Origin: Branchiostoma lanceolatum
Lineage: Eukaryota; Chordata; Leptocardii; Amphioxiformes; Branchiostomatidae
DNA: 64,000 nucleotides
Reading direction: 5' to 3'
Assembly (NCBI RefSeq): GCF_035083965.1
Contig: NC_089724.1
Coordinates: 4,140,001-4,204,000 of the forward strand
In this document: piece after piece, positions 12,601 through 64,000 of the stretch
Numbering within the stretch: the stretch's first letter is position 1
Layout of the letters: each line of letters starts with the position of its first letter
Position numbers and translations under genes: made by a program
Notes under the pieces: model-generated
What the model was told of the DNA's origin: nothing
What the model saw: the letters and a program-made list of their open reading frames with translations, nothing else
Databases searched by the model: none

Positions 12601-13834
12601 ATTATTGCCAGATAGCTCAGAGGTAAGTGTCTCATACTTTGAGGATCACGATACAATGAATGCAATGTACTTTTTTCTTTTTTCATGTAGACAAATCAAA
12701 CTTTGCAAAAAAACATTCATTGGATTGTGCTTTTCTGTCTTTCAGTGTGTGTGTGTGTGCGTGACAGTGCGATGTATGCATGTTTGTGAACCGTTACATA
12801 TCTTATACTGATTCATAGGAAAGGACCCAGATGTAATGTAATTCCATTCAAACTTTCAGAATGATAAACCATGCGTTCTATAGGAAACATATGTATATAT
12901 GTGTCATAGTAGAAATGGCGATTCAGGACAATCAGCGACAGACTCTGATCGCGATCTGTCCTAGGACAATCACCGATTGTCCTGAATCGCCATCTCTACT
13001 GTGACATATACATGTATATTGGTATCCCGTGGCATAGCTAGTTCGCTGAATGAGTTCTATTTTCCACCTGTGACCAGGTTTGGGACAGAAGTAGGATGTC
13101 GTCATTGGGAAGAGTGCATGAAGCTGATACAAGAGGCGAGGAAGTCCAGGCTGTTGAGATGCTGCAACCCGAAGTGTGGCAAACCAGGCTACAGGTAGGT
13201 TTTGCTTATGATGGAGTTATTTTTGTTTCACATTGTCATCATATGCAAATGCTACTATTGGCACAGGAAAATTATCCTAGGTCATACATTTCTCCACAAC
13301 CAACATGTTATCGTCGGTTCAATGTCGATTGTCGTGGTAATTAAGCGAAAGGGGAGAGCGAGCGGTATCTACGGAGTATGGTATTCAGGTATACATAGAG
13401 ACTTTCTTTCCAATTTCCATTTTGATTTTTAAAAGTCTTCATAGCCTACAGAAGGCAATTGGAAAGCAACAAAAACGACACAGTTCCTTAATAGCTTGTT
13501 CAGCTGTTGGATCTTCAACCCCAAAACATTCTTATAAGAGTTGGGTTCCAACTGGAGCCTCGTTTTAGTGCCGTAAGTGGCTAGAGGTCTATTTGTACTT
13601 CCTATCAAAGGAAATTGTCTTGTCTGAAATATCATATGTACCTGTTATCTCATCTACAGGTCAACCGGTGCCCTGAAGCTGTGTGCCCGGTGTAAAATGA
13701 CCCGGTACTGCAGCCGCGACTGTCAGAAACAACACTGGTCTATAGGACACAAGAAGTGCTGTGGGCAAGATGCGTATCCCAAGAAGTGCTGTGGACATAA
13801 CGCGTACCCTGTAAAGCAAACAAAAGCAACCTAA
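9660..13834 (+). CDS. Ankyrin-repeat / MYND zinc-finger protein, paralog B (246 aa)
   Basis: Five exons: 9660-9753, 11694-11867, 12442-12622, 13078-13194, 13660-13834, all GT-AG and in frame (741 nt including TAA). Exon 1 starts an ankyrin-like helix (MEGMSQ...). Exons 2-3 hold ankyrin repeats (TALFAACANGDLDMVRLLL, then TPLMRACAYKQVDTVRRLIE). Exons 4-5 hold a C-terminal MYND finger (CCNPKCGKPGY, LCARCKMTRYC, CSRDCQ, HWSIGHKKCC), with metal-ligand Cys/His in the expected order. The tail repeats a KKCCG(H/Q)xAYP motif. MYND and ankyrin domains bind proteins, so an adaptor role is likely; no enzyme domain is present. It has the same exon phases as paralogs C and E. A poly(A) signal lies ~440 bp downstream. 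Confidence 0.88.
10110..10235. repeat. Short tandem repeat in intron 1 of gene B
   Basis: The words CTGTGTTTGAACAAGTTGAA and GGGGTACTGTG recur about five times, arranged as a larger ~60-bp unit present twice. Confidence 0.75.
10825..11500. repeat. Local ~150-bp direct duplication in intron 1 of gene B
   Basis: A block starting ATTAG(T/C)ATACTAGTATACG at ~10825 recurs at ~11331 with about 90% identity. Between the copies, 11081-11182 forms an imperfect inverted repeat (CAACGGTTGC... / ...GCAACCGTTG). Confidence 0.7.
12899..13008. mobile_element. Palindromic element in intron 3 of gene B
   Basis: The left arm TATGTGTCATAGTAGAAATG and right-arm counterpart CATCTCTACTGTGACATA continue through GGCGATTCAGGACAATC and its inverse. 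The stem is about 36 bp around a ~40-bp centre. No ORF. Confidence 0.75.
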
Positions 13835-15159: not shown

Positions 15160-15262
15160 CACGTGATAACACTACAGTAATTGCTCACGTGACAAGACAA
15201 TAGCTCACGTGACAAGATTATAGCCCACGTGACAAGACAATAGCTCACGTGACAAGACAACT
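15160..15262 (+). promoter_or_regulatory. Tandem E-box array, promoter of gene C
   Basis: Five CACGTG cores; the last four sit in ~20-bp repeats of the form CTCACGTGACAAGACAATAG, ending ~65 bp before the ATG at 15327. The extended core TCACGTGAC resembles TFEB/MITF- and USF-type sites (established motif class); binding here is inference. Confidence 0.72.
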
Positions 15263-32200: not shown

Positions 32201-35200
32201 GAGCCCTCTGTCATAGCGTCTTTGGAATTTGGTGGCCGTGCTATAATTGGATTCCAAAACATCCCCAGCGCTACCCCCATTGAGGGGTCTGCCTACATAG
32301 GTATAAATAAGATAGATCCACGACAGAACTACTGCTCAGGCTCTATCACTGCTCTAACCGTCCCCGCCATTCTCCGCGCTTTCGGTCAGTCCTTCCAGCT
32401 TCCGTCTTTCTTGGCAGATATCGGTTTTCCTGACGGAGCCAGGTTTTCGTTCTCCGCACTAGAGCAAACCCTTCCGAACGGTGTAGCCGTTCCACAGGGG
32501 TTCTTCTTCAAAGGCAAATTACAAATTCTCTTCTCCAGCGTGAGTGCAGACATAAAACTTGACTCAAAATCACTGTATGCCGAGGTCGCAGTGACGCCAT
32601 TCAACATAGGCAACGGCTTGATCCAGATTTCTGGATCAGGTTCCGAAACTGGCCCTATCCTTAAAGTCGAAATCAGCTGGATCCCGATACATGCAGAGCT
32701 GCTAATCGACGGGAGCGTCACCGTCCTCGGCATCCACGGCAGCACCACTGTCTCCATGGACGCATCCAGGACCTATTTTGCTATCGAAGGGAAATTCCTC
32801 AACAAATTTTCAGCATCACTAGAGATAGAGGCTCCCTACGGATCTCTGAAGGAAGCTGAGTTTTCGGCAACTGGGACCTTCAAGAACGACCTTTTCAGGT
32901 CGGTCAATCAACTCAAAACATCTTCTATCTGCGAAAGTGTAGGCTCGAGTATTTTAATCACAATAAGAAGTTAACTAATCATAACCTGTATGTGTGGAAG
33001 TGACTCATGTACCCTTTAGGTTAATCAGAAAGACTTAAATCTCGGTTGCCCAGCTTGTAATGGTGGTAGGTAATACAATGGTACACGGTATGTCTCTTCT
33101 TGAATCATAAATCTTGAGATTCTGAATCAGTATACAATTTTCTTTCAGTACCCTGCAAAACAAGGTCGAGGGATTCCTGGACAACGTCGTGAAGGAAGCA
33201 AACAAGGCCGTGACCGGTGCTCAGGATAAGGTCAAGGAAGCTCACGATGCCTGTGATGACGCAAAAAGACCCTTCAATTCCGCCAAGGCAAAAGTGAGTT
33301 CGTCAATTCGTCGTTAGTGGGCCTTTAGACTTTTGCGCAGCTTTGAAGAATGATATACACCAATTTGACTAAAGGAACTAGGACACAGACACATATGTAA
33401 GGAGGCATCAAATTAAAAAGAGCACATCCGACGGAAATCATCCTGCTGCCTTCTAGACTCTAGAAATAAACTTAAAACTAATCATTTTCGATTGGACGAT
33501 AGACCATGCCAGAGCTCTTTGAACATGATATCCGTTTTCCCTCTAACATCTATTGATAAATAACAAAATACAATCACCCATCAACGGAAATGCAAGAGCA
33601 ATTCCAAAACAGTTTATCCGGTATGCCTTCAGAACTAGGCAACTCTTATACGATATTTCACAGGTTGACAGTGCACAGCGTGACTTTGACAACGCAGTTG
33701 CAAGCTTGGAGGGAGCAGAACGAAACCTGGAGAATAAAAAGAGGAAGTTCGACGATGCCAGTAGGTCTCTGAAGAACAAGGAGGCAGGTTGCAAGCGCAG
33801 GAAATGTAAATGGTGTAAGTAGATCATTATTTTTATATGATTTGATTGCTGTTGGACGGAGGAGGATGCAAGGTTTTAAGTTCTAGCATAACAGATTATC
33901 CCTGCTTAATGTATACTTTTTCCATGTGGATTGGCGCTTGATGTAACTGATTCAGGTTTTCATACCTCATAACGAGTTCTCAAAGACACCAGATATATCT
34001 CATTCATAAGTTGTGGTGTAGGTGTTTGAAATAGTTTTGATAGAGATCCTAATCATTTGGACCTTTACGTGGTGTATGTAACCATATGGAGGGTAGCTAC
34101 AACATTGTTTAGAGTAAATGATACTAGTTTACTCACAGACTGTAACTTTTGTATCAAAATTTGATAGCAAAAAAGAAGCCATGTGGCATGTGCAATGTCA
34201 TTGTTGCACTTTCCATTGCAGGGGATGCTCCTTGTCATGCGAAAAACGCCGCACTGGCAATATGTCGAGCTGCTTTAAAGGTAAGGTCAATCAAACGCTT
34301 TCACTAAGTGGCAACATATATCCACCCACCTATTTCGCATATACAATTGTATTGACATCATCATAAATTTGTTGAGAATTAACGAAAACTTGGCATGGAT
34401 AAATGTCTTTTTTTCGGACACATGTAGCGGTGCTACTCCCTTCCTACTATTCTTGTGTGTGAGAAGTGTTTCTTTCTGGGGGGGGGGGGCATGTAGCCCA
34501 ACAATTTCAACATGTATTAACACCAAATCATAGCGAATGTAGGGCGCAACGCCACAATTACTGTGTGCAGTAATCAAACTAACCATGTCCCTGCTGAATA
34601 CTAGATTGCAAGGGGTGTAGTAGAAGCAGCCAAGAGTACGCTGGACGTTGCCAAATTTGCCGTCTCAGGCGCCCAGGAGATAGTGGACAACAGCCGCTGG
34701 ACTCTTGACGCTGCAAAGGGCGTTCTGGAAGGGACAAAAGCCACAGTGCACGGAGCGTGCGAGTAAGTGGAAACATTGCTTGCACTAATTCATACTGAAA
34801 CTCTGGAGGTTGAAATGATATCCCAATCCAAGTGCATTTGAATTGAACTAGCTTTGATTCATCATTACAATATCTGTGAATTGTTGCTCAATATTCTTTT
34901 GGTGCGTTTGAGAAATACGTTGGATTTGTTATGCCCCGAAGTAAGCTCTTCGTCTTGTGCGTGTATCTACAGCGTTGGCATCGACGCTGTGGAGTTAATG
35001 CTGACTGTTGTCAAGGAAACTCACAAGTTTGGCCTCAACGTAGCAAAGAAGGTAACTGCAAACCACCCATGAACGATAAAATCTTAGTAATTTTTGGGTC
35101 AGAATTGTGCAACCTGCCCCAAAATGATTGTCTAAATGCACTTCACACTCTTATGCTTCTTAACATTATTTAGTAACATAATGGTAAAAGAAATGTAAAA

Positions 35201-40477: not shown

Positions 40478-40605
40478 TCTCACGTGACAATACAATAGCT
40501 CACGTGATAAGACAATAGCTCACGTGACGAGCCAATGGCTCACGTGACAAGACAATAGCTCACGTGATACAACAGCTCACGTGACAAGACAATAGCTCGC
40601 TTGGC
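40478..40605 (+). promoter_or_regulatory. Tandem E-box array in front of ankyrin-MYND copy D
   Basis: Six CACGTG cores in ~20-bp repeats (GCTCACGTGACAAGACAATA), ending ~70 bp before the ATG at 40675. It is well preserved although the gene behind it is only one exon. Confidence 0.7.
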
Positions 40606-40674
40606 TATACAACTTCTTTAGTTCAAACCTAGACAGCACGCGCGCAAGGTGTCGGAAACAGCGATCCTAACCAA

Positions 40675-41758: not shown

Positions 41759-44700
41759 TCACGCTTGGTTTTTATGTTGTAGGATAAGATTTGCCATTGC
41801 CAAATCCTCCCGGAAGGGTTCTGGACCCCCGGAGTAAGTATCATGCCCGCAGCACTTCTTGTGTCCGACAGACCAGTGTTGTGCCTGACAGTCGCGGTTG
41901 CAGTAGCGGGTCATCTTACACCGGCCACACAGCTTCAGTGTTGACCTGTAAAAGATGTAACAGACACACAGTTTCAGTTTCAGCTTATTTCTTATACCAG
42001 AAATACATACACAGGCTGTTCAGGGACTGTGGATAATTCTGTTTTGCAACTGCCTTTTGTAGGCTATGAAGATTTGCAGAAATTTAAATGAAAACGAAGT
42101 TTCTATGTAACATGGGTACCATCCTCTGTAGTTAACGTTACCGCTCGCTCTCCATTTTCGCTTGATCATTTGATTATGCGGATGACATCTCCTGGGTGCC
42201 CCAAAACTGATACGAGTGTGTGAATAAAACAGGTGGACAAAAATGTTCAGTAAGGTTGAAAAATGGCCGAACACACAGAACACGAAATACAAAACTATCA
42301 ATTCTTTATTTTTGCTCTTTCATATCTTCTTCTTTGCTCGGATCTAGAAACCCCTTTGTCAGTTTATTACACATGGCTAAAATTACTTGCATCAAACATT
42401 ATGCAGGCTCAACACAAACCTTCGGACCCGTTCATATTTGTACGTAAATCCAAGTCCGTATGAGTTGGGTATTAGCATTTCTTGGATTAAGCCAAGTGTG
42501 TGGGGGAAAAACTCTGTTAACTTTAACATTATAACCCACCGTTGAGTGCCCCAAAAAATTACTTCATTGGTCGCAAAATGTATCCAAACAAAAATAATTG
42601 ATACGCATCTCATGCGTGGACTGGACTATGCGCACAAGTGTGAACGGGCTTTCACAGTATGGTTGCAAGCTTTTGCTGGTCTTTTTTTAACGAGGGAGGG
42701 GGGGGGTGATATCGATGCACGGATGTCATCCATATAATCAAGGTCTTCCTACGGGAATACGGATCATAGAATTCAGCCAAATAGGCTAGGAAATAATTGA
42801 CCAGGAGAGTCGACGGTGAGGTTACATCATTCCACTCATCAGGTCAACCCCTTTCGGTAGCCAAACTCCCCTGAAGTGCTAGTATTCTCCCTATAAGCTT
42901 AAGCCAGCGTAGTCTTCTTCTTGCCTTTCATGCACACGGTCTTGATGACGACCATTCCGGCATGTTGGGAAAGTCGTGTAAAATGTATTTCCTAAGGGCA
43001 CAAGATCGGTGACACTGAAGGATTCGAACCCGGGACCACTTGGTTCTGAGCGGAACACACTGCCGTTGCGTCACACGACCCCACAAGTCAGTCTGGTACA
43101 TACCAACAATCGAGATTGAGGCGGTAGTGATTACGGAGGAAGGCATCCATTTTCCAGTAGCAACATTTGCTCATGCAAAGCCTTGATACAAGTCATAGGC
43201 GTCAATGATAGATAAAATATCTTAGCAGAGCCATCATCAGCAAGACCTACCTGTAGCCTGGTTTGCCACACTTTGGGTTGCAGCATCTCAGCAACTTGGT
43301 CTTCCTCGCCTCTTGTATCAGCTTCATGCACTCTTCCCAAGGATGGTCTCCTACTTCTATCCCAAACCTGGTGGAAAATATAACTCATTCAGGGAACTAG
43401 CTGGGGAACGGGATATAAATATATTGCATATATATAACATTATTCTTCATATAGGACGCACGGTCTAGAATTCTAAAGTGCCTTTATGCTATCTGTATTC
43501 TTGCCTATGGACCAGAATAGTATAAAACATGCACACATACACATTTTTGCTAGTGTATCTCTTCGAAAAGCGGCGGAGATGAGTGAGTGAGAGTGATCCC
43601 CCCACACACACACACACGCGCGCGCGCGCTCGCTCACACACGCGCGCACACACTCACACACACGCGCGCGCACACACTCACTGTGAGACAGAGACGAACA
43701 CGAGCCGATGGCTCAGTCCAGTTCTATTTGAAAATTTGTCTACATAAAAAAAAACAATCATATATTGTATGTATCACTCATTTCATTATTCTCAAAGTAT
43801 GTGACACTTACCTCTGGGCTACCTCGCCATAATCGTCGGTCGAGTCAACTCTTGCTCCCAGCTCAATCAGTCGCCGAACCGTGTCCACTTGTTTGTAGAC
43901 ACATGCTCTCATGAGTGGCGTGCACTGAAGGCGGTCCCGTATGTCTAAAGTTGCACCAGCATTCACCAGCAACTCCACTATTTCTGTCCACCCTAAGTTG
44001 GATTTGTGGCACAAGAAATACACATCAAGTTGAGAAACGTTGAAGAAAAATATACAATGCAAACCCAAAGGCTAAAAGCTGACATACTGTCACAGAAAGC
44101 TTTTCAGTTCCCTTCACTTGCAGTGTGAGTTTTCAGTTCCCATGGAGTCTAGCACTTTGTTGTCTCGGCTAGCTCACAGTTGCAAATTCTACTAATTACG
44201 ACACTAGACAACAATAGGCGTGAAATACATCATCGCAGCGAAATGTCAAACATACCCTCTTGTCAGTTGAAACTTCGGTTGGCATATCTTAAAAGTCTTA
44301 AGACTAGCATTTGTCGTAAATTGCAGACAGATATACAAAGACTAGGTGTAACAGAGACCGTTCGGTGTAATATAAACAGCTAGCTGCTGCCACTCCGCGC
44401 GCCTGTCGCACCGTGTGTTACGCCGAATGGCGGTTATACCGGCCATATTGATACAGATACAGATTGACCTACCTTCGGATGCTGCTCCATGAAGAGGAGC
44501 AAATGAACCACCGGTTCTCTTCGCCACAAACGCCCCCTTGCGGAGCAGCAGTCTCACTATGCCTACATGTCCCCCGTAGCAAGCATGGTGCAATGCCGTG
44601 CCTCTGCTTGATGTTGAAGGCTCGAAGTCAACGTCTGCACCTGCGTTTGGTGAACAATGATTGCGGTTAAGTAAAACTGAATATACACATTGTCAATATA

Positions 44701-46574: not shown

Positions 46575-46702
46575 GAAGTTGTCTTACTACCTGAGCTATT
46601 GTCTTGCCACGTGATCTATTGTCTTTCCACGTGATCTATTGTCTTGTCACGTGATCTATTGCCTTGCCACGTGATCTATTGTCTTTCCACGTGAGCCATA
46701 GT
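46575..46702 (-). promoter_or_regulatory. Tandem E-box array, promoter of gene E
   Basis: Five CACGTG cores in ~20-bp repeats (minus strand GATCACGTGGAAAGACAATA) plus a decayed CTCAGGTAG repeat nearest the gene. This is the same decayed last unit as in gene B, so B and E promoters share recent ancestry. The distance to the ATG at 46497 is ~80 bp. Confidence 0.72.
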
Positions 46703-47329: not shown

Positions 47330-48537
47330 TCATCCAAAAAGTTTTAAGAGTGTCCAGAATTCCGGTTGGTGTCCATGGTCTCGGACGTGTTGTGCCATCA
47401 ACGTCATCAGTTTCCACCAGCTTTCTATCCCCTGGTCTTCGGAACACGCGTCATGCCCGCAGCACTTCTTGTGTCCGATAGACCAGTGTTGTCTCTGACA
47501 GTCGCGACTGCAGTAGCGGGTCATCTTACACCGGGCGCACAGCTTCAGGGCACCGGTTGACCTGTAGAAAATACAAGACAATTTCCTTCGATAGGTAGTA
47601 CAAATAGACGTCTTGCCATTATCACGGCGTCCATTTTTAATATCCCGGGGTCAGCTTTGGGTCATGCACCAAAACGAGGCTCCAGTTGGTGTCCCCCTTC
47701 TTATAAGCATGTACCTGTATTGCAATATAGGTATGCCATCTTTGGTCACCGTGGTCGTTTCACCCCTCAAGGGTGAAATACTGCAAGAAGTCTATTCAGA
47801 TGGAAAACATACTTTCTTCGGGCCAATAACAACGCCTGTACAGAGGACAAAGTATGTTTAAGTTAGTATTCTCAGACGAAATGGAAATAAAACGATGGAG
47901 CCTTCATCATCAAAACCTACCTGTAGCCGGGTTTGCCACACTTCGGGTTGCAGCATTTCAACAGCCTGGACTTCCTCGCTTCTTCTATCAGCTTCATGCT
48001 CTCGTGGCAATCGCAGAAGCCACGGCAGACATGGCTTTCGTCTGCTATCCCCATCCTAGTGGAAAGGTTTGACTCGTTTAGGAAACTTGACCACAAGATA
48101 TCTATCTATTTACATCCATCGATCTATCTATCTATCTATCTAATGATAGTATCTGTCTGTCTATACCTTTCTTTATATATCATATGTATCAGGATAGTAT
48201 AAAACATGCACCATGCACACACACAAACAAACACACACATAAATATGTGTATATAAACAAACAAACAAACACAAGACGAATTATTCCAGCTTTATTAGAA
48301 AGTTTGTCTACCGTAGAAACAGTCGTTCATTTTGTATTCTGATGGAAGGGTATGACACTTGCCACTGAGCGTCGTGGCCGTCGGTCAAATCAGGCCTTGC
48401 TCCAAACTCCAACAGTCGCCGAACTGTGTCGACACGTTTGTTGACGCATGCAGTCATGAGCGGCGTGTTCTGGAAGCCGTCCCGTATGTCTAGTGTTGCA
48501 CCATGATTCACCAGTAATTCCACCACTTCTGTCCACC
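47330..48537 (-). CDS. Ankyrin-MYND copy F, missing exons 1-2
   Basis: Exons matching family exons 3-5: 48537-48363, 48055-47921, 47561-47330. Frames join correctly. Exon 3 carries an ankyrin repeat (TPLMTACVNKRVDTVRRLLE). Exons 4-5 carry an intact MYND finger (CCNPKCGKPGY, LCARCKMTRYC, CSRDCQ, HWSIGHKKCC) and an extended tail (ESWWKLMTLMAQHVRDHG). The exon 3 donor reads CAGTG/gcaagt, a GC-AG intron, unlike the GT donors of the paralogs. No family exon 1, exon 2 or E-box array occurs before the 5S array begins at ~49060, so either the 5' end is lost or it lies beyond the array. Probably a 5'-truncated gene. Confidence 0.72.
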
Positions 48538-48679
48538 CTGAGATTGGATTTGCGACACAAAAATAATATAAATGAATTAAAATCATCAAATTTTGTGTTG
48601 GAAATGAATGATAATGCAATTTGTTTTATCTTTAGCTATATGATTTACTGAATTTCTTGATGTTGTTGATATCTTGTTC

Positions 48680-49060: not shown

Positions 49061-49061
49061 T

Positions 49062-49165
49062 CGTTCCCAAGTGGTCTCCCATCCAGGTACTGGCCGGACT
49101 CGACGTTGCTTAACTATCCGAGTTCGAATGGGATCGGGTGTTCTCAACGCCATGTGGCCTTAGAT
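49062..49165 (-). rRNA. 5S-rRNA-like gene, array 1 unit 1
   Basis: Minus strand carries AGTTAAGCAACGTCGAGTCC (box A region) and AGTACCTGGATGGGAGACC (box C), the internal Pol III promoter of 5S genes. The last ~10 bases of the usual 3' end are replaced by flanking sequence, so this edge unit is truncated. Confidence 0.75.
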
Positions 49166-49240
49166 GAAAGGTGATGTTTGGGTGGCTTACTTATGGCCAC
49201 TTTTTACAATAATCGAAAGAAAAAAAGAATCAAAAGAGAC

Positions 49241-49356
49241 GCCTTCAGCATTCGTTCCCAAGTGTTCTCCCATCCAGGTACTGGCCGGACTCGACGTTGC
49301 TTAACTATCCGAGTTCAAATGGGATCGGGTGTTCTCAACGCCATGTGGCCTTAGAT
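49241..49356 (-). rRNA. 5S-rRNA-like gene, array 1 unit 2
   Basis: A 116-nt unit from ATCTAAGGCCACATGG to GCTGAAGGC, followed by CTTTTG and T-rich stretches that can end Pol III transcription. It has GAACAC for GACCAC after GGGA in box C. Confidence 0.78.
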
Positions 49357-49431
49357 GAAAGGTGATGTTTGGGTGGCTTTCTTATGGCCACTTTTTGCAA
49401 TAATCGAAAGAAAAAAATAGTCAAAAGAGAC

Positions 49432-49547
49432 GTCTTCAGCATTCGTTCCCAAGTGTTCTCCCATCCAGGTACTGGCCGGACTCGACGTTGCTTAACTATC
49501 CGAGTTCGAATGGGATCGGGTGTTCTCAACGCCATGTGGCCTTAGAT
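49432..49547 (-). rRNA. 5S-rRNA-like gene, array 1 unit 3
   Basis: Same structure as unit 2, with the same box C substitution. Unit period is 191 bp. Confidence 0.78.
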
Positions 49548-49803
49548 GAAAGGTGATGTTTGGGTGGCTTACTTATGGCCACTTTTTACAATAATCGAAA
49601 GAAAAAAAAGAATCAAAAGAGACGCCTTCAGCATCCGTTCCCAGGCAGCCAAGTACCTTTGTTGACCAATGGTTGAGCGACGTTGAGCAAGTTGAGTACT
49701 CAACCCGCCAATCATTGAGCCACGTTGAGCAGGGTCTTTTGCTCAACAGACCAATCAGGCTGCGCGACCCCCGTATGTCAGAGTTGAAACTGGGGTCAAA
49801 TCC

Positions 49804-49814
49804 AAGATGGCGGC
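49804..49814 (+). promoter_or_regulatory. AAGATGGCGGC (YY1-like) start element of the linker transcript
   Basis: AAGATGGCGGC is the well-known YY1-type core promoter / translation-start motif. Here the ATG is followed by a stop after six codons, so it would act as a transcription-start element. It is conserved at 62555 in the second linker. Confidence 0.5.
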
Positions 49815-51724
49815 AACCGGCCATTAGTGTGCGAAGCGAGGCACCTTTTCTGCTGTCATCTCGCTCAGGTGAGGCTAATCTTCTTCAAATTTGTCTCATT
49901 TTGTAGGGAATCTGGTGGCGCACAAGGCTATCTAGTTTAGGTTTTAGCTCCGTCGGCAGATTTTACGAAAATTGACTAGTTATTTCGTCAAAATCCCATT
50001 GTTTAAGTATAGTAAATTCGGCATGGTGGAGGGTAATTTTACCTGAATTTATACCGCTGTCACTTGGCTCAGGTAAGTCCCATCTCCCCCATTCTTGGCT
50101 CTTTTACAAGTCTATCTAGTTTGGGGTTTTCCTGTGTTGACAGATTTTCTGAAAATTGACAACTTCTATTGTCCAATATGCCATTGTTTAACCTCCTTGG
50201 TTTATGTATGGGGATTTCATGGCATTTTCCTGTCAATTCATCCCGCTGTCATTTTCCTCAGGTAAGTCCCATCTCCTCCATTCTTGGCTCTTTTTTAAGG
50301 TCATGTAGTTGTGCACAAAGCTATCTAGTTTTGGGGGTGCCTGTCTTGATAGATTGTCTGAAAAATGTCAGCTTCTATTGTCAAAAATACCATTGTTAAG
50401 AGATGCTGATTTTGCATGTTCTTGTGTATAGACAACATAGATCCAGTTGCCGTTGAATCTGAGCTAATTTTTCACTCATTTTGCTATCTGGTGCATCTTG
50501 TTAGCTTTGGAACAATGTTATTGACCTTTTGCGGTAATAATCTTTGTGTTTTCAGGGGCATAGCTAGTCCCCTACTAGCTAGTAGCTACATATTCTTGTA
50601 TCCAAAACTGGTTCTGTTGCAGATGAAGTCAATTTTAGATCTGCTTCTGTTTTAGGCTTTACGTTAGATGATCTATCTTAATCTAGATAACAGGCTACTA
50701 GGATGGGACAAAGTAAGGTTTTTGCATAGCGTTACAGAATGAAGAAACTGAACTACTGTATGTATAATTGATATTGTGTTTATGTTTACTACACCAGGTG
50801 AAGGTTGAACATGGAGAGGAGATGGAGAGTTTCCTTCTCTCACCTGTCATTTTGTCAAGGCTGAACCTGGTCGGAGGTAAGATAACTTTTAGATCATTTT
50901 GACTAAGTTTTGATTACAGATTGTACTGTTTTGTGTATGGACAAACTTAGCACCTCTACTTGTAAGGCATTGGTGTTTTCTACAAGCCGCATAAGACCAA
51001 ACTGATAGGTTTAATCCACTCACACCAATAAGTAATCTTTTCTATAATAAGACTGGTCGGTTCTTTAAGTTTAACGTGCTCGAGGTGTGTCTCTCCTCAA
51101 ACATAGAACCTCTGACTTGACGTCCCATCCTACTGTTTTATCTTCTGCAGGAACCGGACTCAAAGAAACAAGTGAAAGCTGACTCTACTGTTTACAGGTT
51201 GCAGCAGGATCCTGACTATGCAAGTGATACTGTATTGTTGGCACCTACAGGTCATGTTACGTTTTATGATGCTGAGATTGAAATGACATTTGTACATGCT
51301 TTATTTGTACATGTTTGTACAAGTGTGTATAGTGTGTTGCTGTACTTTCAGCATTTACCTTCTTGTCTTAGGCTAGATAACATTTGATGATGTCTTGTGC
51401 TGTGTGTGTTACACTGACACCTGATGTCAGAGTTTCATAGAATATGAAGACATTTTAATTGGAGATGATACATATGAAGACTGCTTCCATAGAATTTTAC
51501 AGAAATTTTAAAGTTAGAAATGATTTCGTTTCTTCAAAGACTACTATGCTTTGTGAAATTCATTCTTACACTGTCTTGAAATGTACTTTATCATAAATCT
51601 TGGTCTGATTTCTTCTTCAGAAATGAGAAAGTGTCCTTGATGAATCAGAGGTGCCAGTATACTTACAACTTATTGCCTGAGGAGACATCACACCAGCTGG
51701 GAGCCAGCACTCTGTCAACTGGTG

Positions 51725-51850
51725 CTCTCCAAGCAGAGGTTTGATGAGAAGGTTGTGACCTTCTTCTGACTTGCCCCGTTTACCTAAAGCCAATCCATTT
51801 TTTTCAATCCAACCTCCAACCTCGCCTGGCTGTCAGAAGAAGCTCACAAT
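51725..51850. repeat. Hairpin-forming dispersed repeat, copy 3
   Basis: GTGCTCTCCAAGCAGAGG, then CTTCTTCTGACTTGCCCCG and inverse CTGTCAGAAGAAG, related to the copies at 14800 and 40150. It lies in the last exon of the linker transcript candidate. Confidence 0.5.
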
Positions 51851-53969
51851 CTCTCAATCCAACATTTGGTTGGCTGTTAGAAAACAGCACAAGTCTTGCA
51901 CTGTAAGGTGTATGAAACATTTTGCTATTTTGCATCACCATACCGTGTTCAGACACTTAAGACTTGCAGGCACAACAGTTTTGGGAAGAGTTTTCTGATC
52001 AAGGAAGAATTTTGTTAGAAAGGATTGTGATTATTGAATGGTTTGAAAAGAAAATGGCACCTGAACAAATATAGGAAGAAGAGTTCTAAGTTCTGTCCAA
52101 GGGGAGCTGTCCAACAGCTGGCATCACCAGTGCCCCAGAACCTGAATTCTCTTCATCTTGTTCAGCTCCTAAATTCCCTCAAAGACATCAAGTCTCATTT
52201 CCTATAGCAATTATACCTCGATTCTAACAGCAACCTTCTCTATGCTACCTGTTACTGCTTGAAGACAAGAACACTAAGTTATAAATGCAGTGAGATGTAT
52301 TGAATGTTTTCTACTGACTGTTCTTATTTATACTTTGTATCAACATAACCTCCTAAATACTTAAAACAGAAAGGAATAAAAATTTTGAGCCCTTTTTATG
52401 TGACAGAGGACGGTAAAGATGTTAAGTGTTTTATGATCTCTTTATTACAGAAATAAAATGGGATTTGGCGGTGTTTTCATGTTTTAATTGCTAAAGCAGA
52501 TGTAAAATTCAATTTCTCACTTTAATCCAACAGATTCCTGCCATCTCAACATAGATACGGCATCCCAAAGAGGTTAACACACTTTCCCCCACATCTGCAT
52601 GGATTCCCGAGATCTCCAAGCAGATGTCGCTTAACCCAGGAGTTTCTGTAGGGACTTGGGGGGGTCATCCGCCGTTCCCAAGTGGTCTCCCATCCAGGTA
52701 CTGGCCGGACTCGACGTTGCTTAACTATCCGAGTTCGAATGGGATCGGGTGTTCTCAACGCCATGTGGCCTTAGATGAAAGGTGATGTTTGGGTGGCTTA
52801 CTTATGGCCACTTTTTACAATAATCGAAAGAAAAAAATAATCAAAAGAGACGCCTTCAGCATTCGTTCCCCGTTCCCAAGTGGTCTCCCATCCAGGTACT
52901 GGCCGGACTCGACGTTGCTTAACTATCCGAGTTCGAATGGGATCGGGTGTTCTCACACCATGTGGCCTTAGATGAAAGGTGATGTTTGGGTGGCTTACTT
53001 ATGGCCACTTTTTACAATAATCGAAAGAAAAAAATAATCAAAAGAGACGCCTTCAGCATTCGTTCCCAAGTGGTCTCCCATCCAGGTACTGGCCGGACTC
53101 GACGTTGCTTAACTATCCGAGTTTGAATGGGATCGGGTGTTCTCAACGCCATGTGGCCTTAGATGAAAGGTGATGTTTGGGTGGCTTACTTATGGCCACT
53201 TTTTACAATAATCGAAAGAAAAAAATAATCAAAAGAGACGCCTTCAGCATTCGTTTCCAAGTGGTCTCCCATCCAGGTACTGGTCGGACTCGACGTTGCT
53301 TAACTATCCGAGTTCGAATGGGATCGGGTGTTCTCAACGCCATGTGGCCTTAGATGAAAGGTGATGTTTGGGTGGCTTACTTATGGCCACTTTTTACAAT
53401 AATCGAAAGAACAAAATAGTCAAAAGAGACGCCTTCAGCATTCGTTCCCAAGTGGTCTCCCATCCAGGTACTGGCCGGACTCGACGTTGCTTAACTATCC
53501 GAGTTCGAATGGGATCGGGTGTTCTCAACGCCATGTGGCCTTAGATGAAAGGTGATGTTTGGGTGGCTTACTTATGGCCACTTTTTACAATAATCGAAAG
53601 AAAAAAATAGTCAAAAGAGACGCCTTCAGCATTCAAGTGGTCTCCCATCCAGGTATTGGCCGGACTCGACGTTGCTTAACTATCCGAGTTCGAATGGGAT
53701 CGGGTGTTCTCAACGCCATGTGGCCTTAGATGAAAGGTGATGTTTGGGTGGCTTACTTATGGCCACTTTTTACAATAATCGAAAGAAAAAAATAATCAAA
53801 AGAGACGCCTTCAGCATTCGTTTCCAAGTGGTCTCCCATCCAGGTACTGGTCGGACTCGACGTTGCTTAACTATCCGAGTTCGAATGGGATCGGGTGTTC
53901 TCAACGCCATGTGGCCTTAGATGAAAGGTGATGTTTGGGTGGCTTACTTATGGCCACTTTTTACAATAA

Positions 53970-56900
53970 TCGAAAGAAAAAAATAGTCAAAAGAGACGCC
54001 TTCAGCATTCGTTCCCAAGTGGTCTCCCATCCAGGTACTGGCCGGACTCGACGTTGCTTAACTATCCGAGTTCGAATGGGATCGGGTGTTCTCAACGCCA
54101 TGTGGCCTTAGATGAAAGGTGATGTTTGGGTGGCTTACTTATGGCCACTTTTTACAATAATCGAAAGAAAAAAATAGTCAAAAGAGGCGCCTTCAGCATT
54201 CAAGTGGTCTCCCATCCAGGTACTGGCCGGACTTGACGTTGCTTAACTATCCGAGTTCGAATGGGATCGGGTGTTCTCAACGCCATGTGGCCTTAGATGA
54301 AAGGTGATGTTTGGGTGGCTTACTTATGGCCACTTTTTACAATAATCGAAAGAAAAAAATAGTCAAAAGAGACGCCTTCAGCATTCGTTCCCAAGTGGTC
54401 TCCCATCCAGGTACTGGCCGGACTCGACGTTGCTTAACTATCCGAGTTCGAATGGGATCGGGTGTTCTCAACGCCATGTGGCCTTAGATGAAAGGTGATG
54501 TTTGGGTGGCTTACTTATGGCCACTTTTTACAATAATCGAAAGAAAAAAATAATCAAAAGAGACGCCTTCAGCATTCGTTCCCAAGTGGTCTCCCATCCA
54601 GGTACTGGCCGGACTCGACGTTGCTTAACTATCCGAGTTCGAATGGGATCGGGTGTTCTCAACGCCATGTGGCCTTAGATGAAAGGTGATGTTTGGGTGG
54701 CTTACTTATGGCCACTTTTTACAATAATCGAAAGAAAAAAATAATCAAAAGAGACGCCTTCAGCATTCGTTCCCAAGTGGTCTCCCATCCAGGTACTGGC
54801 CGGACTCGACGTTGCTTAACTATCCGAGTTCGAATGGGATCGGGTGTTCTCACACCATGTGGCCTTAGATGAAAGGTGATGTTTGGGTGGCTTACTTATG
54901 GCCACTTTTTACAATAATCGAAAGAAAAAAATAATCAAAAGAGACGCCTTCAGCATTCGTTTCCAAGTGGTCTCCCATCCAGGTACTGGCCGGACTCGAC
55001 GTTGCTTAACTATCCGAGTTTGAATGGGATCGGGTGTTCTCAACGCCATGTGGCCTTAGATGAAAGGTGATGTTTGGGTGGCTTACTTATGGCCACTTTT
55101 TACAATAATCGAAAGAAAAAAATAATCAAAAGAGACGCCTTCAGCATTCGTTTCCAAGTGGTCTCCCATCCAGGTACTGGTCGGACTCGACGTTGCTTAA
55201 CTATCCGAGTTCGAATGGGATCGGGTGTTCTCACACCATGTGGCCTTAGATGAAAGGTGATGTTTGGGTGGCTTACTTATGGCCACTTTTTACAATAATC
55301 GAAAGAAAAAAAATAGTCAAAAGAGACGCCTTCAGCATTCGTTTCCAAGTGGTCTCCCATCCAGGTACTGGCCGGACTCGACGTTGCTTAACTATCCGAG
55401 TTTGAATGGGATCGGGTGTTCTCAACGCCATGTGGCCTTAGATGAAAGGTGATGTTTGGGTGGCTTACTTATGGCCACTTTTTACAATAATCGAAAGAAA
55501 AAAATAATCAAAAGAGACGCCTTCAGCATTCGTTTCCAAGTGGTCTCCCATCCAGGTACTGGTCGGACTCGACGTTGCTTAACTATCCGAGTTCGAATGG
55601 GATCGGGTGTTCTCAACGCCATGTGGCCTTAGATGAAAGGTGATGTTTGGTTGGCTTACTTATGGCCACTTTTTACAATAATCGAAAGAAAAAAATAGTC
55701 AAAAGAGACGCCTTCAGCATTCAAGTGGTCTCCCATCCAGGTATTGGCCGGACTCGACGTTGCTTAACTATCCGAGTTCGAATGGGATCGGGTGTTCTCA
55801 ACGCCATGTGGGCTTAGATGAAAGGTGATGTTTGGGTGGCTTACTTATGGCCACTTTTTACAATAATCGAAAGAAAAAAATAGTCAAAAGAGCCGCCTTC
55901 AGCATTCGTTCCCAAGTGGTCTCCCATCCAGGTACTGGCCGGACTCGACGTTGCTTAACTATCCGAGTTCGAATGGGATCGGGTGTTTTCAACGCCATGT
56001 GGCCTTAGATGAAAGGTGATGTTTGGGTGGCTTACTTATGGCCACTTTTTACAATAATCGAAAGAAAAAAAGAATCAAAAGAGACGCCTTCAGCATTCGT
56101 TCCCAAGTGGTCTCCCATCCAGGTATTGGCCGGACTCGACGTTGTTTAACTATCCGAGTTCGAATGGGATCGGGTGTTCTCAACGCCATGTGGCCTTAGA
56201 TGAAAGGTGATGTTTGGGTGGCTTACTTATGGCCACTTTTTACAATAATCGAAAGAAAAAAATAATCAAAAGAGACGCCTTCAGCATTCGTTTCCAAGTG
56301 GTCTCCCATCCAGGTACTGGTCGGACTCGACGTTGCTTAACTATCCGAGTTCGAATGGGATCGGGTGTTCTCAACGCCATGTGGCCTTAGATGAAAGGTG
56401 ATGTTTGGTTGGCTTACTTATGGCCACTTTTTACAATAATCGAAAGAAAAAAATAGTCAAAAGAGACGCCTTCAGCATTCAAGTGGTCTCCCATCCAGGT
56501 ATTGGCCGGACTCGACGTTGCTTAACTATCCGAGTTCGAATGGGATCGGGTGTTCTCAACGCCATGTGGGCTTAGATGAAAGGTGATGTTTGGGTGGCTT
56601 ACTTATGGCCACTTTTTACAATAATCGAAAGAAAAAAATAGTCAAAAGAGCCGCCTTCAGCATTCGTTCCCAAGTGGTCTCCCATCCAGGTACTGGCCGG
56701 ACTCGACGTTGCTTAACTATCCGAGTTCGAATGGGATCGGGTGTTTTCAACGCCATGTGGCCTTAGATGAAAGGTGATGTTTGGGTGGCTTACTTATGGC
56801 CACTTTTTACAATAATCGAAAGAAAAAAAGAATCAAAAGAGACGCCTTCAGCATTCGTTCCCAAGTGGTCTCCCATCCAGGTATTGGCCGGACTCGACGT

Positions 56901-57960
56901 TGTTTAACTATCCGAGTTCGAATGGGATCGGGTGTTCTCAACGCCATGTGGCCTTAGATGAAAGGTGATGTTTGGGTGGCTTACTTATGGCCACTTTTTA
57001 CAATAATCGAAAGAAAAAAAGAATCAAAAGAGACGCCTTCAGCATTCGTTCCCAAGTGGTCTCCCATCCAGGTACTGGCCGGACTCGACGTTGCTTAACT
57101 ATCCGAGTTCGAATGGGATCGGGTGTTCTCAACGCCATGTGGCCTTAGATGAAAGGTGATGTTTGGGTGGCTTACTTATGGCCACTTTTTACAATAATCG
57201 AAAGAAAAAAATAATCAAAAGAGACGCCTTCAGCATTCGTTCCCAAGTGGTCTCCCATCCAGGTACTGGCCGGACTCGACGTTGCTTAACTATCCGAGTT
57301 CGAATGGGATCGGGTGTTCTCAACGCCATGTGGCCTTAGATGAAAGGTGATGTTTGGGTGGCTTACTTACGGCCACTTTTTACAATAATCGAAAGAAAAA
57401 AATAATCAAAAGAGACGCCTTCAGCATTCGTTCCCACGTGGTCTCCCATCCAGGTACTGGCCGGACTCGACGTTGCTTAACTATCCGAGTTCGAATGGGA
57501 TCGGGTGTTCTCAACGCCATGTGGCCTTAGATGAAAGGTGATGTTTGGGTGGCTTACTTATGGCCACTTTTTACAATAATCGAAAGAAAAAAAGTAATCA
57601 AAAGAGACGCCTTCAGCATTCGTTCCCACGTGGTCTCCCATCCAGGTACTGGCCGGACTCGACGTTGCTTAACTATCCGAGTTCGAATGGGATCGGGTGT
57701 TCTCAACGCCATGTGGCTATAGATGAAAGGTGATGTTTGGGTGGCTTTCTTATGGCCACTTTTTACAATAATCGAAAGAAAAAAATAGTTAAAAGAGACG
57801 CCTTCAGCATTCGTTCCCAAGTGGTCTCCCATCCAGGTATTGGCCGGACTCGACGTTGCTTAACTATCCGAGTTCGAATGGGATCGGGTGTTCTCAACGC
57901 CATGTGGCCTTAGATGAAAGGTGATGTTTGGGTGGCTTACTTATGGCCACTTTTTACAAT
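53970..57960. repeat. 21-unit higher-order block, first copy
   Basis: Unit-specific variants recur exactly 4184 bp later (for example GAGGCGCC at 54184 and 58368; AAAAAAAGTAATC at ~57590 and ~61774). About 4 kb of the array was therefore copied as a block of some 20-22 units. A smaller 4-unit (~758 bp) duplication is nested inside (55549-56307). Confidence 0.85.
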
Positions 57961-58154
57961 AATCGAAAGAAAAAAATAATCAAAAGAGACGCCTTCAGCA
58001 TTCGTTTCCAAGTGGTCTCCCATCCAGGTACTGGTCGGACTCGACGTTGCTTAACTATCCGAGTTCGAATGGGATCGGGTGTTCTCAACGCCATGTGGCC
58101 TTAGATGAAAGGTGATGTTTGGGTGGCTTACTTATGGCCACTTTTTACAATAAT

Positions 58155-61100
58155 CGAAAGAACAAAATAGTCAAAAGAGACGCCTTCAGCATTCGTTCCC
58201 AAGTGGTCTCCCATCCAGGTACTGGCCGGACTCGACGTTGCTTAACTATCCGAGTTCGAATGGGATCGGGTGTTCTCAACGCCATGTGGCCTTAGATGAA
58301 AGGTGATGTTTGGGTGGCTTACTTATGGCCACTTTTTACAATAATCGAAAGAAAAAAATAGTCAAAAGAGGCGCCTTCAGCATTCAAGTGGTCTCCCATC
58401 CAGGTACTGGCCGGACTTGACGTTGCTTAACTATCCGAGTTCGAATGGGATCGGGTGTTCTCAACGCCATGTGGCCTTAGATGAAAGGTGATGTTTGGGT
58501 GGCTTACTTATGGCCACTTTTTACAATAATCGAAAGAAAAAAATAGTCAAAAGAGACGCCTTCAGCATTCGTTCCCAAGTGGTCTCCCATCCAGGTACTG
58601 GCCGGACTCGACGTTGCTTAACTATCCGAGTTCGAATGGGATCGGGTGTTCTCAACGCCATGTGGCCTTAGATGAAAGGTGATGTTTGGGTGGCTTACTT
58701 ATGGCCACTTTTTACAATAATCGAAAGAAAAAAATAATCAAAAGAGACGCCTTCAGCATTCGTTCCCAAGTGGTCTCCCATCCAGGTACTGGCCGGACTC
58801 GACGTTGCTTAACTATCCGAGTTCGAATGGGATCGGGTGTTCTCAACGCCATGTGGCCTTAGATGAAAGGTGATGTTTGGGTGGCTTACTTATGGCCACT
58901 TTTTACAATAATCGAAAGAAAAAAATAATCAAAAGAGACGCCTTCAGCATTCGTTCCCAAGTGGTCTCCCATCCAGGTACTGGCCGGACTCGACGTTGCT
59001 TAACTATCCGAGTTCGAATGGGATCGGGTGTTCTCACACCATGTGGCCTTAGATGAAAGGTGATGTTTGGGTGGCTTACTTATGGCCACTTTTTACAATA
59101 ATCGAAAGAAAAAAATAATCAAAAGAGACGCCTTCAGCATTCGTTTCCAAGTGGTCTCCCATCCAGGTACTGGCCGGACTCGACGTTGCTTAACTATCCG
59201 AGTTTGAATGGGATCGGGTGTTCTCAACGCCATGTGGCCTTAGATGAAAGGTGATGTTTGGGTGGCTTACTTATGGCCACTTTTTACAATAATCGAAAGA
59301 AAAAAATAATCAAAAGAGACGCCTTCAGCATTCGTTTCCAAGTGGTCTCCCATCCAGGTACTGGTCGGACTCGACGTTGCTTAACTATCCGAGTTCGAAT
59401 GGGATCGGGTGTTCTCACACCATGTGGCCTTAGATGAAAGGTGATGTTTGGGTGGCTTACTTATGGCCACTTTTTACAATAATCGAAAGAAAAAAAATAG
59501 TCAAAAGAGACGCCTTCAGCATTCGTTTCCAAGTGGTCTCCCATCCAGGTACTGGCCGGACTCGACGTTGCTTAACTATCCGAGTTTGAATGGGATCGGG
59601 TGTTCTCAACGCCATGTGGCCTTAGATGAAAGGTGATGTTTGGGTGGCTTACTTATGGCCACTTTTTACAATAATCGAAAGAAAAAAATAATCAAAAGAG
59701 ACGCCTTCAGCATTCGTTTCCAAGTGGTCTCCCATCCAGGTACTGGTCGGACTCGACGTTGCTTAACTATCCGAGTTCGAATGGGATCGGGTGTTCTCAA
59801 CGCCATGTGGCCTTAGATGAAAGGTGATGTTTGGTTGGCTTACTTATGGCCACTTTTTACAATAATCGAAAGAAAAAAATAGTCAAAAGAGACGCCTTCA
59901 GCATTCAAGTGGTCTCCCATCCAGGTATTGGCCGGACTCGACGTTGCTTAACTATCCGAGTTCGAATGGGATCGGGTGTTCTCAACGCCATGTGGGCTTA
60001 GATGAAAGGTGATGTTTGGGTGGCTTACTTATGGCCACTTTTTACAATAATCGAAAGAAAAAAATAGTCAAAAGAGCCGCCTTCAGCATTCGTTCCCAAG
60101 TGGTCTCCCATCCAGGTACTGGCCGGACTCGACGTTGCTTAACTATCCGAGTTCGAATGGGATCGGGTGTTTTCAACGCCATGTGGCCTTAGATGAAAGG
60201 TGATGTTTGGGTGGCTTACTTATGGCCACTTTTTACAATAATCGAAAGAAAAAAAGAATCAAAAGAGACGCCTTCAGCATTCGTTCCCAAGTGGTCTCCC
60301 ATCCAGGTATTGGCCGGACTCGACGTTGTTTAACTATCCGAGTTCGAATGGGATCGGGTGTTCTCAACGCCATGTGGCCTTAGATGAAAGGTGATGTTTG
60401 GGTGGCTTACTTATGGCCACTTTTTACAATAATCGAAAGAAAAAAATAATCAAAAGAGACGCCTTCAGCATTCGTTTCCAAGTGGTCTCCCATCCAGGTA
60501 CTGGTCGGACTCGACGTTGCTTAACTATCCGAGTTCGAATGGGATCGGGTGTTCTCAACGCCATGTGGCCTTAGATGAAAGGTGATGTTTGGTTGGCTTA
60601 CTTATGGCCACTTTTTACAATAATCGAAAGAAAAAAATAGTCAAAAGAGACGCCTTCAGCATTCAAGTGGTCTCCCATCCAGGTATTGGCCGGACTCGAC
60701 GTTGCTTAACTATCCGAGTTCGAATGGGATCGGGTGTTCTCAACGCCATGTGGGCTTAGATGAAAGGTGATGTTTGGGTGGCTTACTTATGGCCACTTTT
60801 TACAATAATCGAAAGAAAAAAATAGTCAAAAGAGCCGCCTTCAGCATTCGTTCCCAAGTGGTCTCCCATCCAGGTACTGGCCGGACTCGACGTTGCTTAA
60901 CTATCCGAGTTCGAATGGGATCGGGTGTTTTCAACGCCATGTGGCCTTAGATGAAAGGTGATGTTTGGGTGGCTTACTTATGGCCACTTTTTACAATAAT
61001 CGAAAGAAAAAAAGAATCAAAAGAGACGCCTTCAGCATTCGTTCCCAAGTGGTCTCCCATCCAGGTATTGGCCGGACTCGACGTTGTTTAACTATCCGAG

Positions 61101-62145
61101 TTCGAATGGGATCGGGTGTTCTCAACGCCATGTGGCCTTAGATGAAAGGTGATGTTTGGGTGGCTTACTTATGGCCACTTTTTACAATAATCGAAAGAAA
61201 AAAAGAATCAAAAGAGACGCCTTCAGCATTCGTTCCCAAGTGGTCTCCCATCCAGGTACTGGCCGGACTCGACGTTGCTTAACTATCCGAGTTCGAATGG
61301 GATCGGGTGTTCTCAACGCCATGTGGCCTTAGATGAAAGGTGATGTTTGGGTGGCTTACTTATGGCCACTTTTTACAATAATCGAAAGAAAAAAATAATC
61401 AAAAGAGACGCCTTCAGCATTCGTTCCCAAGTGGTCTCCCATCCAGGTACTGGCCGGACTCGACGTTGCTTAACTATCCGAGTTCGAATGGGATCGGGTG
61501 TTCTCAACGCCATGTGGCCTTAGATGAAAGGTGATGTTTGGGTGGCTTACTTACGGCCACTTTTTACAATAATCGAAAGAAAAAAATAATCAAAAGAGAC
61601 GCCTTCAGCATTCGTTCCCACGTGGTCTCCCATCCAGGTACTGGCCGGACTCGACGTTGCTTAACTATCCGAGTTCGAATGGGATCGGGTGTTCTCAACG
61701 CCATGTGGCCTTAGATGAAAGGTGATGTTTGGGTGGCTTACTTATGGCCACTTTTTACAATAATCGAAAGAAAAAAAGTAATCAAAAGAGACGCCTTCAG
61801 CATTCGTTCCCACGTGGTCTCCCATCCAGGTACTGGCCGGACTCGACGTTGCTTAACTATCCGAGTTCGAATGGGATCGGGTGTTCTCAACGCCATGTGG
61901 CTATAGATGAAAGGTGATGTTTGGGTGGCTTTCTTATGGCCACTTTTTACAATAATCGAAAGAAAAAAATAGTTAAAAGAGACGCCTTCAGCATTCGTTC
62001 CCAAGTGGTCTCCCATCCAGGTATTGGCCGGACTCGACGTTGCTTAACTATCCGAGTTCGAATGGGATCGGGTGTTCTCAACGCCATGTGGCCTTAGATG
62101 AAAGGTGATGTTTGGGTGGCTTACTTATGGCCACTTTTTACAATA
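58155..62145. repeat. 21-unit higher-order block, second copy
   Basis: Partner of 53970-57960, apparently identical or nearly so by eye. The copies stop matching beyond ~62145, where unit 51 carries different variants. Confidence 0.85.
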
Positions 62146-62384
62146 ATCGAAAGAAAAAAAATAGTCAAAAGAGACGCCTTCAGCATTCGTTCCCAAGTGG
62201 TCTCCCATCCAGGTACTGGCCGGACTCGACGTTGCTTAACTATCCGAGTTCGAATGGGATCGGGTGTTCTCAACGCCATGTGGCCTTAGATGAAAGGTGA
62301 TGTTTGGGTGGCTTACTTATGGCCACTTTTTACAATAATCGAAAGATAAAAATAATCAAAAGAGACGCCTTCAGCATTCGTTCC

Positions 62385-64000
62385 CAGGCGGTTTCCCAGC
62401 CAAGTACCTTTGTTGACCAATGGTTGAGCGACGTTGAGCAAGTTGAGTACTCAACCCGCCAATCATTGAGCCACGTTGAGCAGGGCCTTTTGCTCAACAG
62501 ACCAATCAGGCTGCGCGACCCCCGTAAGTCAGAGTTCAAACCGGGGTCAAATCCAAGATGGCGGCAACCGGCCATCAGTGTGCGAAGCGAGGCACCTTTT
62601 CTGCTGTCATCTCGCTCAGGTGAGGCCAATCTTCTTCAAATTTGTCTCATTTTGTAGGGAATCTGGTGGCGCACAAGGCTATCTAGTTTTAGTTTTAGCT
62701 CCGTCGGTAGATTTTACGAAAATTGACTAGTTATTTCGTCAAAATCCCATTGTTTAAGTATAGTAAATTCGGCATGGTGGAGGGTAATTTTACCTGAATT
62801 CATACCGCTGTCACTTGGCTCAGGTAAGTCCCATCTCCCTCATTCTTGGCTCTTTTTTAAGGTCATTTAGTGGTGCACAAATCTATCTAATTTGGGTTTT
62901 TCCTGTGTTGATAGATTTTCTGAAAATTGACAACTTCTATTGTCCAATATGCCATTGTTTATGTATGGGGATTTCATGGCATTTTCCTGTCAATTCATAC
63001 CGCTGTCACTTGGCTCAGGTAAGTCCCATCTCCCCCATTCTTGGCTCTTTTTTAAGGTCATTTAGTGGTGCACAAATCTATCTAGTTTGGGGTTTTCCTG
63101 TGTTGACAGATTTTCTGAAAATTGACAACTTCTATTGTCCAATATGCCATTGTTTATGTATGGGGATTTCATGGCATTTTCCTGTCAATTCATCCCGCTG
63201 TCATTTTCCTCAGGTAAGTCCCATCTCCCCCATTCTTGGCTCTTTTTTAAGGTCATGTAGTTGTGCACAAAGCTATCTAGTTTTGGGGGTGCCTGTCTTG
63301 ATAGATTATCTGAAAAATGTCAGCTTCTATTGTCAAAAATACCATTGTTAAGAGATGCTGATTTTGCATGTTCTTGTGCATAGACAACATAGATCCACTT
63401 GCCGTTGAATCTGAGCTAATTTTTCACTCATTTTGCTAGCTGGTGCATCTTGTTAGCTTTGGAACAATGTTATTGACATTTTGCGGTAATAATCTTTGTG
63501 TTTTCAGGGGCATAGCTAGTCCCCTACTAGCTAGTAGCTACATATTCTTGTATCCATACTAACTGGTTCTGTTGCAGATGAAGTCAATTTTAGATCTGCT
63601 TCTGTTTTAGGCTTTACCTTAGATGATCTATCTTAATCTAGATAACAGGCTACTAGGATGGGACAAAGTAAGGTTTTTGCATAGCGTTACAGAATGAAGA
63701 AACTGAACTACTGTACATACATATAATTGATATGTGTTTATGTTTACTACACCAGGTGAAGGTTGAACATGGAGAGGAGATGGAGAGTTTCCTCCTCTCA
63801 CCTGTCATTTTGTCAAGGCTGAACCTGGTCGGAGGTAAGATAACTTTTAGATCATTTTGACTAAGTTTTGATTACAGATTGTACTGTTTTGTGTATGGAC
63901 AAACTTAGCACCTCTACTTGTAAGGCATCGGTGTTTTCTACAAGCCGCATAAGACCAGACTGATAGGTTTAATCCACTCACACCAATAAGTAATCTTTTC
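62385..64000. repeat. Linker between 5S arrays, copy 2 (runs off the edge)
   Basis: Same content as 49640-51042, including AAGATGGCGGC at 62555, donors and the ACACCAG exon. It has four instead of three ~192-bp donor blocks and lacks the 14-bp ACCTCCTTG insertion seen at ~50190. Confidence 0.85.

Follow-up and report, generated by a model that had tools for sequence, protein, structure and literature searches.

According to Kojima and Jurka 2013 (PMC3706591), Dada elements are DNA transposons that insert at fixed bases of U6, U1 and tRNA genes and generate target-site duplications of 6-7 bp. They are described there as lacking terminal inverted repeats; in the U6 and U1 families, short sub-terminal inverted repeats have counterparts in the target gene, spaced at an equal distance. 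The paper further places the Dada-U6 duplication at U6 65-70, reports introns in all members except those of Perkinsus, states that internally deleted derivatives exist, and names Dada-1_BF of Branchiostoma floridae and Mutsu, a non-LTR retrotransposon found in 5S genes. The 5S-targeting elements, Dada-5S, come from four fish families, Clupeidae, Cyprinidae, Adrianichthyidae and Labridae (Table 1 of Kojima 2022, PMC8869645). Their target is ATTCCCAGGCGGTC, which we divide as ATTCCC/AGGCGGTC, the position of the duplication boundary (slash) within the printed target being taken from a statement in the same paper on the similar Dada-U1 site. The characterised families encode a transposase, and Dada is argued to recognize its target by primary sequence (PMC8869645). 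Our literature search found Dada-5S named in PMC8869645 only, from ray-finned fish, and returned no paper on the locus described here.

This locus occupies the last part of a 64,000-nucleotide stretch of DNA, the whole of which was analysed and is referred to as the window. It had been annotated in a first pass as three 5S-like units, a linker of ~3 kb (here L1), 51 further units and a second linker copy (L2), with the 5S-like genes on the minus strand, and our analysis bears out both this layout and the strand. The features are listed below, with the linkers labeled according to the reading that we favor.

49063-49642 (49061-49643 as a repeat run), minus strand: first run, 3 x 191-bp units (Rfam, TRF, unit table)
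49063-49068: GTTCCC target box on the outer left edge of the 3-unit run (unit table)
49637-49642: GTTCCC, read as the left target-site duplication of L1
49643-52673, plus strand: L1, read as a 3,031-bp inserted element (junctions, ORF and Pfam searches)
52674-52679: GTTCCC, read as the right target-site duplication of L1
52674-62385 (52673-62407 as a repeat run), minus strand: second run, 51 units (Rfam, TRF)
62380-62385: GTTCCC target box bordering L2 on its left
62386-64000, plus strand: L2, read as a second element copy with its right end beyond the window

We consider it likely that both linkers represent copies of one non-autonomous, cut-and-paste DNA transposon that resembles Dada-5S and inserts at one exact position of 5S rRNA-type genes. 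Like Dada-5S (PMC8869645), they occupy the corresponding 5S insertion base, with the target on the strand complementary to 5S RNA and with a short target duplication; unlike it, the linker here is 3.0 kb, has no recognizable transposase and lies in divergent 5S-like units. Dada-U6N1_DR (PMC3706591), an internally deleted Dada of zebrafish U6, is similar in being non-autonomous, in its fixed site and in a sub-terminal inverted repeat shared with the target, and differs in target gene and sequence. Mutsu shares the 5S rRNA genes as target but is a retroelement, whereas L1 has no reverse-transcriptase match and no poly(A) tail at either edge. The linker is probably a new, non-autonomous member of the site-specific DNA transposons of small RNA genes. 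Its assignment to Dada is provisional, because no transposase was found in L1 and the likeness to Dada is one to published descriptions, not to sequence. Exact-pattern scans of viral contigs for relatives gave no match, eukaryotic DNA not being expected there.

All Rfam matches in the window (n = 54) are to RF00001 (5S_rRNA) on the minus strand, with scores of 52.2-71.7 bits, and every unit passes the gathering score of 38 bits. The unit period is 191 bp, with variants of 185, 190, 192 and 198 bp (TRF and spacing of unit anchors). The units are related to 5S along their length. Alignments were inspected for four of the 54 units, two complete and two at array margins. When the complete units (49240-49356 and 49431-49547) were aligned to RF00001, three of the nine helix I pairs were non-standard and three bases were missing near model positions 103-105, near helix V; neither helix is intact in these two units, contrary to what functional 5S would show. 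In the two margin units, the 3′ ends of the 5S matches run into other sequence. Folding of three units gave z = 0.01, -0.34 and 0.08. Across the array units, the 5S part (pi = 0.0177) varies about as much as the spacer (pi = 0.0194), whereas in functional 5S the gene would be the more conserved of the two. That all 54 units pass Rfam might suggest functional 5S genes, a reading we set aside as unlikely given the defects in helix I and near helix V in the two complete units inspected and a 5S part about as variable as the spacer. The units look like a decayed, 5S-derived satellite, not working genes. Because a CTCTTTT terminator-like box is present in all 54, their transcription is still conceivable. 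ARAGORN found no tRNA in the window.

L1 interrupts this array without shifting its phase. The unit anchors flanking L1 are spaced 3,229 bp apart, equal to 191 + 3,038, and removing 3,031 bp together with one box restores an in-phase 191-bp unit, with one substitution before the box (ATC for ATT). L1 and L2 (at 62386) begin at the identical base of the 5S-like unit, and this base corresponds to ATTCCC/AGGCGGTC of the Dada-5S target. The units themselves read GTTCCC/AAGTGGTC, with three mismatches to the published 14-mer, and the left edge of L2, GTTCCCAGGCGGTT (GTTCCC/AGGCGGTT), is the window's closest match to ATTCCCAGGCGGTC, with two mismatches. GTTCCC stands on both sides of L1, a duplication of the size expected of Dada (6-7 bp); the right side of L2 falls outside the window. 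The run common to both L1 junctions extends up to 9 bp (CCGTTCCCA), so the duplication is readable as 6 to 9 bp. We take it as 6 bp because both ends are then equally spaced to the inner motif described below, and because a 6-bp stretch is absent here from seven units.

Related motifs are found close to the linker ends.

49649-49658, plus strand: left sub-terminal motif of L1, CCAAGTACCT, 6 bp from the target-site duplication
52650-52659, minus strand: right sub-terminal inverted motif of L1, CCAAGTCCCT, 14 bp from the target-site duplication
62400-62409, plus strand: left sub-terminal motif of L2, CCAAGTACCT, 14 bp from the target box

L2 starts with AGGCGGTTTCCCAGCCAAGTACCT and the reverse complement of the L1 right end starts with GGCGGATGACCCCCCCAAGTCCCT. 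In each of them, CCAAGT is 14 bp away from the box and forms part of an inverted motif, CCAAGTnCCT, that these two ends share at that distance from GTTCCC. The left end of L1 has lost 8 bp relative to L2, hence its spacing of 6 bp, not 14. Matches of at least 9/10 to CCAAGTACCT number six in the window, three of them at the element ends, and three among 97,982 background positions (first 49 kb, both strands), counts to be read with the motif having been picked after seeing the end of L2. The units carry a similar arrangement: GTTYCC-N14-CCAGGTA occurs in 47/54, with the spacing of the element ends and with a box of GTTCCC in 34 and GTTTCC in 13, and the remaining seven are those with a 6-bp deletion. 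The unit motif, CCAGGT, is one base apart from the CCAAGT of the element ends. A sub-terminal inverted repeat that is also in the target at equal distance, as described for Dada-U6 and Dada-U1, is seen at the L2 left end, the L1 right end and, one base different, in the units. Alignment of the two 30-bp ends gave P values of 0.0039 by shuffling and 0.0031 against random 30-mers from the window. This overall similarity is only moderate, which is why we speak of sub-terminal motifs and not of good terminal inverted repeats. We take the element ends to be closer to canonical animal 5S than the local units are. From what we assume to be the position of the ACAGAGA box in U6, the Dada-U6 motif would also lie 14 bp from its duplication, as in the L2 left and L1 right ends.

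The first bases of L2 after the target box presumably resemble the 3′ part of canonical 5S, and with just the two mismatches to the published 14-mer L2 continues from the box much as that part would. The left end of the linker could on these grounds be a captured piece of canonical 5S that entered by illegitimate recombination, not transposition. We think this very improbable, since it leaves unexplained the duplication and the kept phase at L1, as well as the inverted motif at the right end and the indels that occur at the same base in linker-free units.

Those indels were seen in an alignment of the 54 units, two of which are interrupted, unit 3 by L1 and unit 54 by L2. Relative to the consensus, 36 units have no indel, eight have single-base indels only (in three columns) and eight have multi-base indels, one of +7 and seven of -6. 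All eight multi-base indels fall at the insertion base.

52865-52877: GTTCCC-C-GTTCCC, where 7 bp are duplicated at the target box, interpreted as a footprint of excision
53628-53640: first of the seven units without 6 bp (GTTCCC) at the target box

The anchors of the seven -6 units are at 53641, 54208, 55729, 56487, 58392, 59913 and 60671. Three pairs among them are copied by a 4,184-bp block described below, so no more than four of the deletions can be independent, and all seven may stem from a single event. The 6- and 7-bp indels are apparent scars of excision or of failed transposition.

The nature of the indels also bears on whether the linkers could belong to another transposon class (hAT, P or MULE-like, with an 8-9 bp duplication) that landed here twice, or once with a later duplication. 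Such a class would accommodate the shared run of up to 9 bp around L1. It would not account for the coincidence with the published Dada-5S target base, for the 14-bp motif spacing common to the L2 left end, the L1 right end and the units, or for indels of 6 and 7 bp, and the two 30-bp ends are just modestly similar. We judge another class to be very unlikely and retain a Dada-like element.

On its outer left side, the 5S-like array likewise has its margin (49061-49068) at the transposon target box. A second element end at this margin was considered and rejected, as CCAAGT is absent at offset 14 in the reverse complement of the flank (from 49061). We cannot explain the position of this margin other than by chance (about 1-2 in 191) or by an older event.

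The first-pass annotation had also proposed that the linker carries a spliced Pol II unit on the plus strand, on the basis of a start motif, splice sites and poly(A) signals, and that this unit could keep the chromatin of a Pol III array open or homogenise the array. We located the following in L1.

49804-49814, plus strand: AAGATGGCGGC promoter motif, after three CCAAT boxes
50070-50078, plus strand: perfect splice-donor consensus MAGGTRAGT, with a second at 50259

We take AAGATGGCGGC to be a YY1-type promoter motif. It is present once per linker, and these are the only two occurrences in the window. In L1, the three CCAAT boxes and the single AAGATGGCGGC are all within the first 250 bp, and the CpG observed/expected ratio is 0.72 in the first 260 bp vs 0.30 in the rest. 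The plus strand of L1 has two perfect donors, where 500 shuffles average 0.07 (two or more in 0.6% of them), and the minus strand has none; the two donors fall within copies of a single internal repeat and cannot be counted as independent. L2 retains these features, with three donors and one AAGATGGCGGC. Two A[AT]TAAA sites occur in L1, against an average of about one AATAAA per shuffle. The start motif and the donors are real as sequence and lie inside the element; the poly(A) signals are uninformative. A plus-strand transcription unit in the linker, predicted to be Pol II-like and opposite to the minus-strand 5S-like genes, is plausible from the sequence, and we attribute it to the element itself, a Dada derivative being expected to have one. 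The proposed role in chromatin opening or homogenisation is unsupported: L1 is a phase-keeping insertion with a target-site duplication, at the base corresponding to the published target.

The coding content of L1 was searched in six frames, and no Pfam family was found. The longest ORF is 88 amino acids vs a shuffle mean of 104, with none beyond chance, and no Dada-like CCHC finger pattern is present in L1. A DDE transposase (DxxH, CCCC and CCHC fingers), as in autonomous members, was not found, and L1 fits a non-autonomous derivative only. A gene of the host, or a snoRNA host gene, within the linker was rejected because the six frames gave no Pfam family. The only snoRNA match there (E up to 5) was snoZ165, at 21.3 bits vs a cut-off of 90 and with E 1.9.

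A rival reading that follows the first-pass annotation is a host Pol II gene built into a higher-order 5S repeat of 12.8 kb, which would help keep chromatin open or homogenise the array. The plus-strand promoter-like and splice-donor motifs would suit it, as would two linker copies that differ by just 2.4%. Against it are the target-site duplication and the kept phase, an ORF length within the shuffle range with no protein family, and the register of the units flanking the two linkers: comparison of the three units before L1 with the three before L2 gave 18 changes, rank 34 of 49 registers, showing no special similarity. We regard this reading as highly improbable. The 12.8-kb unit itself, as originally put forward, is not established, there being a single complete linker-array period, an L2 that is cut by the window end, and flanks that are out of register; the register test lends a true higher-order repeat no support. 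Two insertions of a site-specific element in one array explain the layout without such a unit, and a duplication with flanks homogenised later is possible.

L2 is visible for 1,615 bp before the window end cuts it. Over the aligned part, L1 and L2 differ at 34 of 1399 bases (2.4%) and by seven gap runs, with six of the 34 differences clustered beside the largest gap, where they may be alignment effects. The mean difference between units is 2.0%, about that between the linker copies. The largest gap is an extra copy in L2 of an internal repeat of ~195 bp. Within the array, the strongest internal repeat is a block of 22 units: 53634-57976 recurs at 57818-62160, a shift of 4,184 bp with one mismatch in 4,343 bp, such that units 9-30 and 31-52 are one block copied tandemly. 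No other register tested comes near this, the others at lags 1-30 averaging 3.7-4.6 changes per unit. The block copy includes no linker, and it is either a very recent duplication (unequal exchange) or an assembly effect. The count of 51 units may for this reason reflect very recent expansion or an assembly effect.

The same block raises the question of whether L1 and L2 are allelic or duplicate sequences that the assembly has brought together, with the number 51 inflated by an assembly duplication and one insertion instead of two. An allelic difference of 2.4% is within the range for highly polymorphic animals, and the 4,343-bp stretch repeated with one mismatch also speaks for it. L1 and L2 are, however, unlike in internal repeat number and in the left-end deletion, and their flanks are not in register. 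We hold a joining of this kind to be rather unlikely, though deserving of some weight; it would change copy number only and is compatible with the transposon reading.

For the transposon reading, we hypothesize the following mechanism. A full-length relative at another place in the genome would supply a Dada transposase that recognizes the motif found in the element ends and in the 5S gene; with no transposase found in L1, the element would be non-autonomous. Insertion would duplicate GTTCCC, and excision would leave scars of 6 or 7 bp. The element's own transcription unit would survive in the promoter and splice motifs of the plus strand, and the array hosting the element would be a decayed satellite derived from 5S, able to tolerate the insertions. 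We tentatively extend this, with somewhat less than even confidence, to a 5S-targeting Dada lineage outside ray-finned fish that lives on a derived 5S-like satellite. Its ends would copy the Pol III box C region, so that one recognition serves both target and ends, and repeated excision at one base would make the array a record of transposition.

On this reading, a supposed 5S/Pol II higher-order repeat is recast as target-specific DNA transposition that can be put to the test. Should the host not be a ray-finned fish, 5S-targeting Dada would have a wider range than reported. Filled sites, apparent excision scars and intact sites lie side by side in the array, which provides material to infer how the transposase cuts. 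The agreement of the element ends with the target gene favors recognition through primary sequence, in line with the argument made for Dada (PMC8869645).

Elsewhere in the window, the ORFs tested contain EGF, ankyrin and MYND domains (Pfam), which have an animal character. Minisatellites of 20 bp containing ACGTG may hint at a cephalochordate host, although a literature search on them gave no paper. ORF fragments with ankyrin repeats and a MYND finger are located at 12282-12623, 44345-44692, 47333-47650 and 48311-48625, and are perhaps exons of related ankyrin-MYND genes. A 1,066-codon ORF (stop to stop) on the plus strand at 29774-32974 has no Pfam family at E 0.01. TRF identified ~3.2 copies of a 180-bp tandem repeat at 6778-7343 (86% matches), as well as four minisatellites whose 20-bp units resemble one another and include CACGTG, at 9492-9577, 15179-15260, 40479-40613 and 46579-46694.
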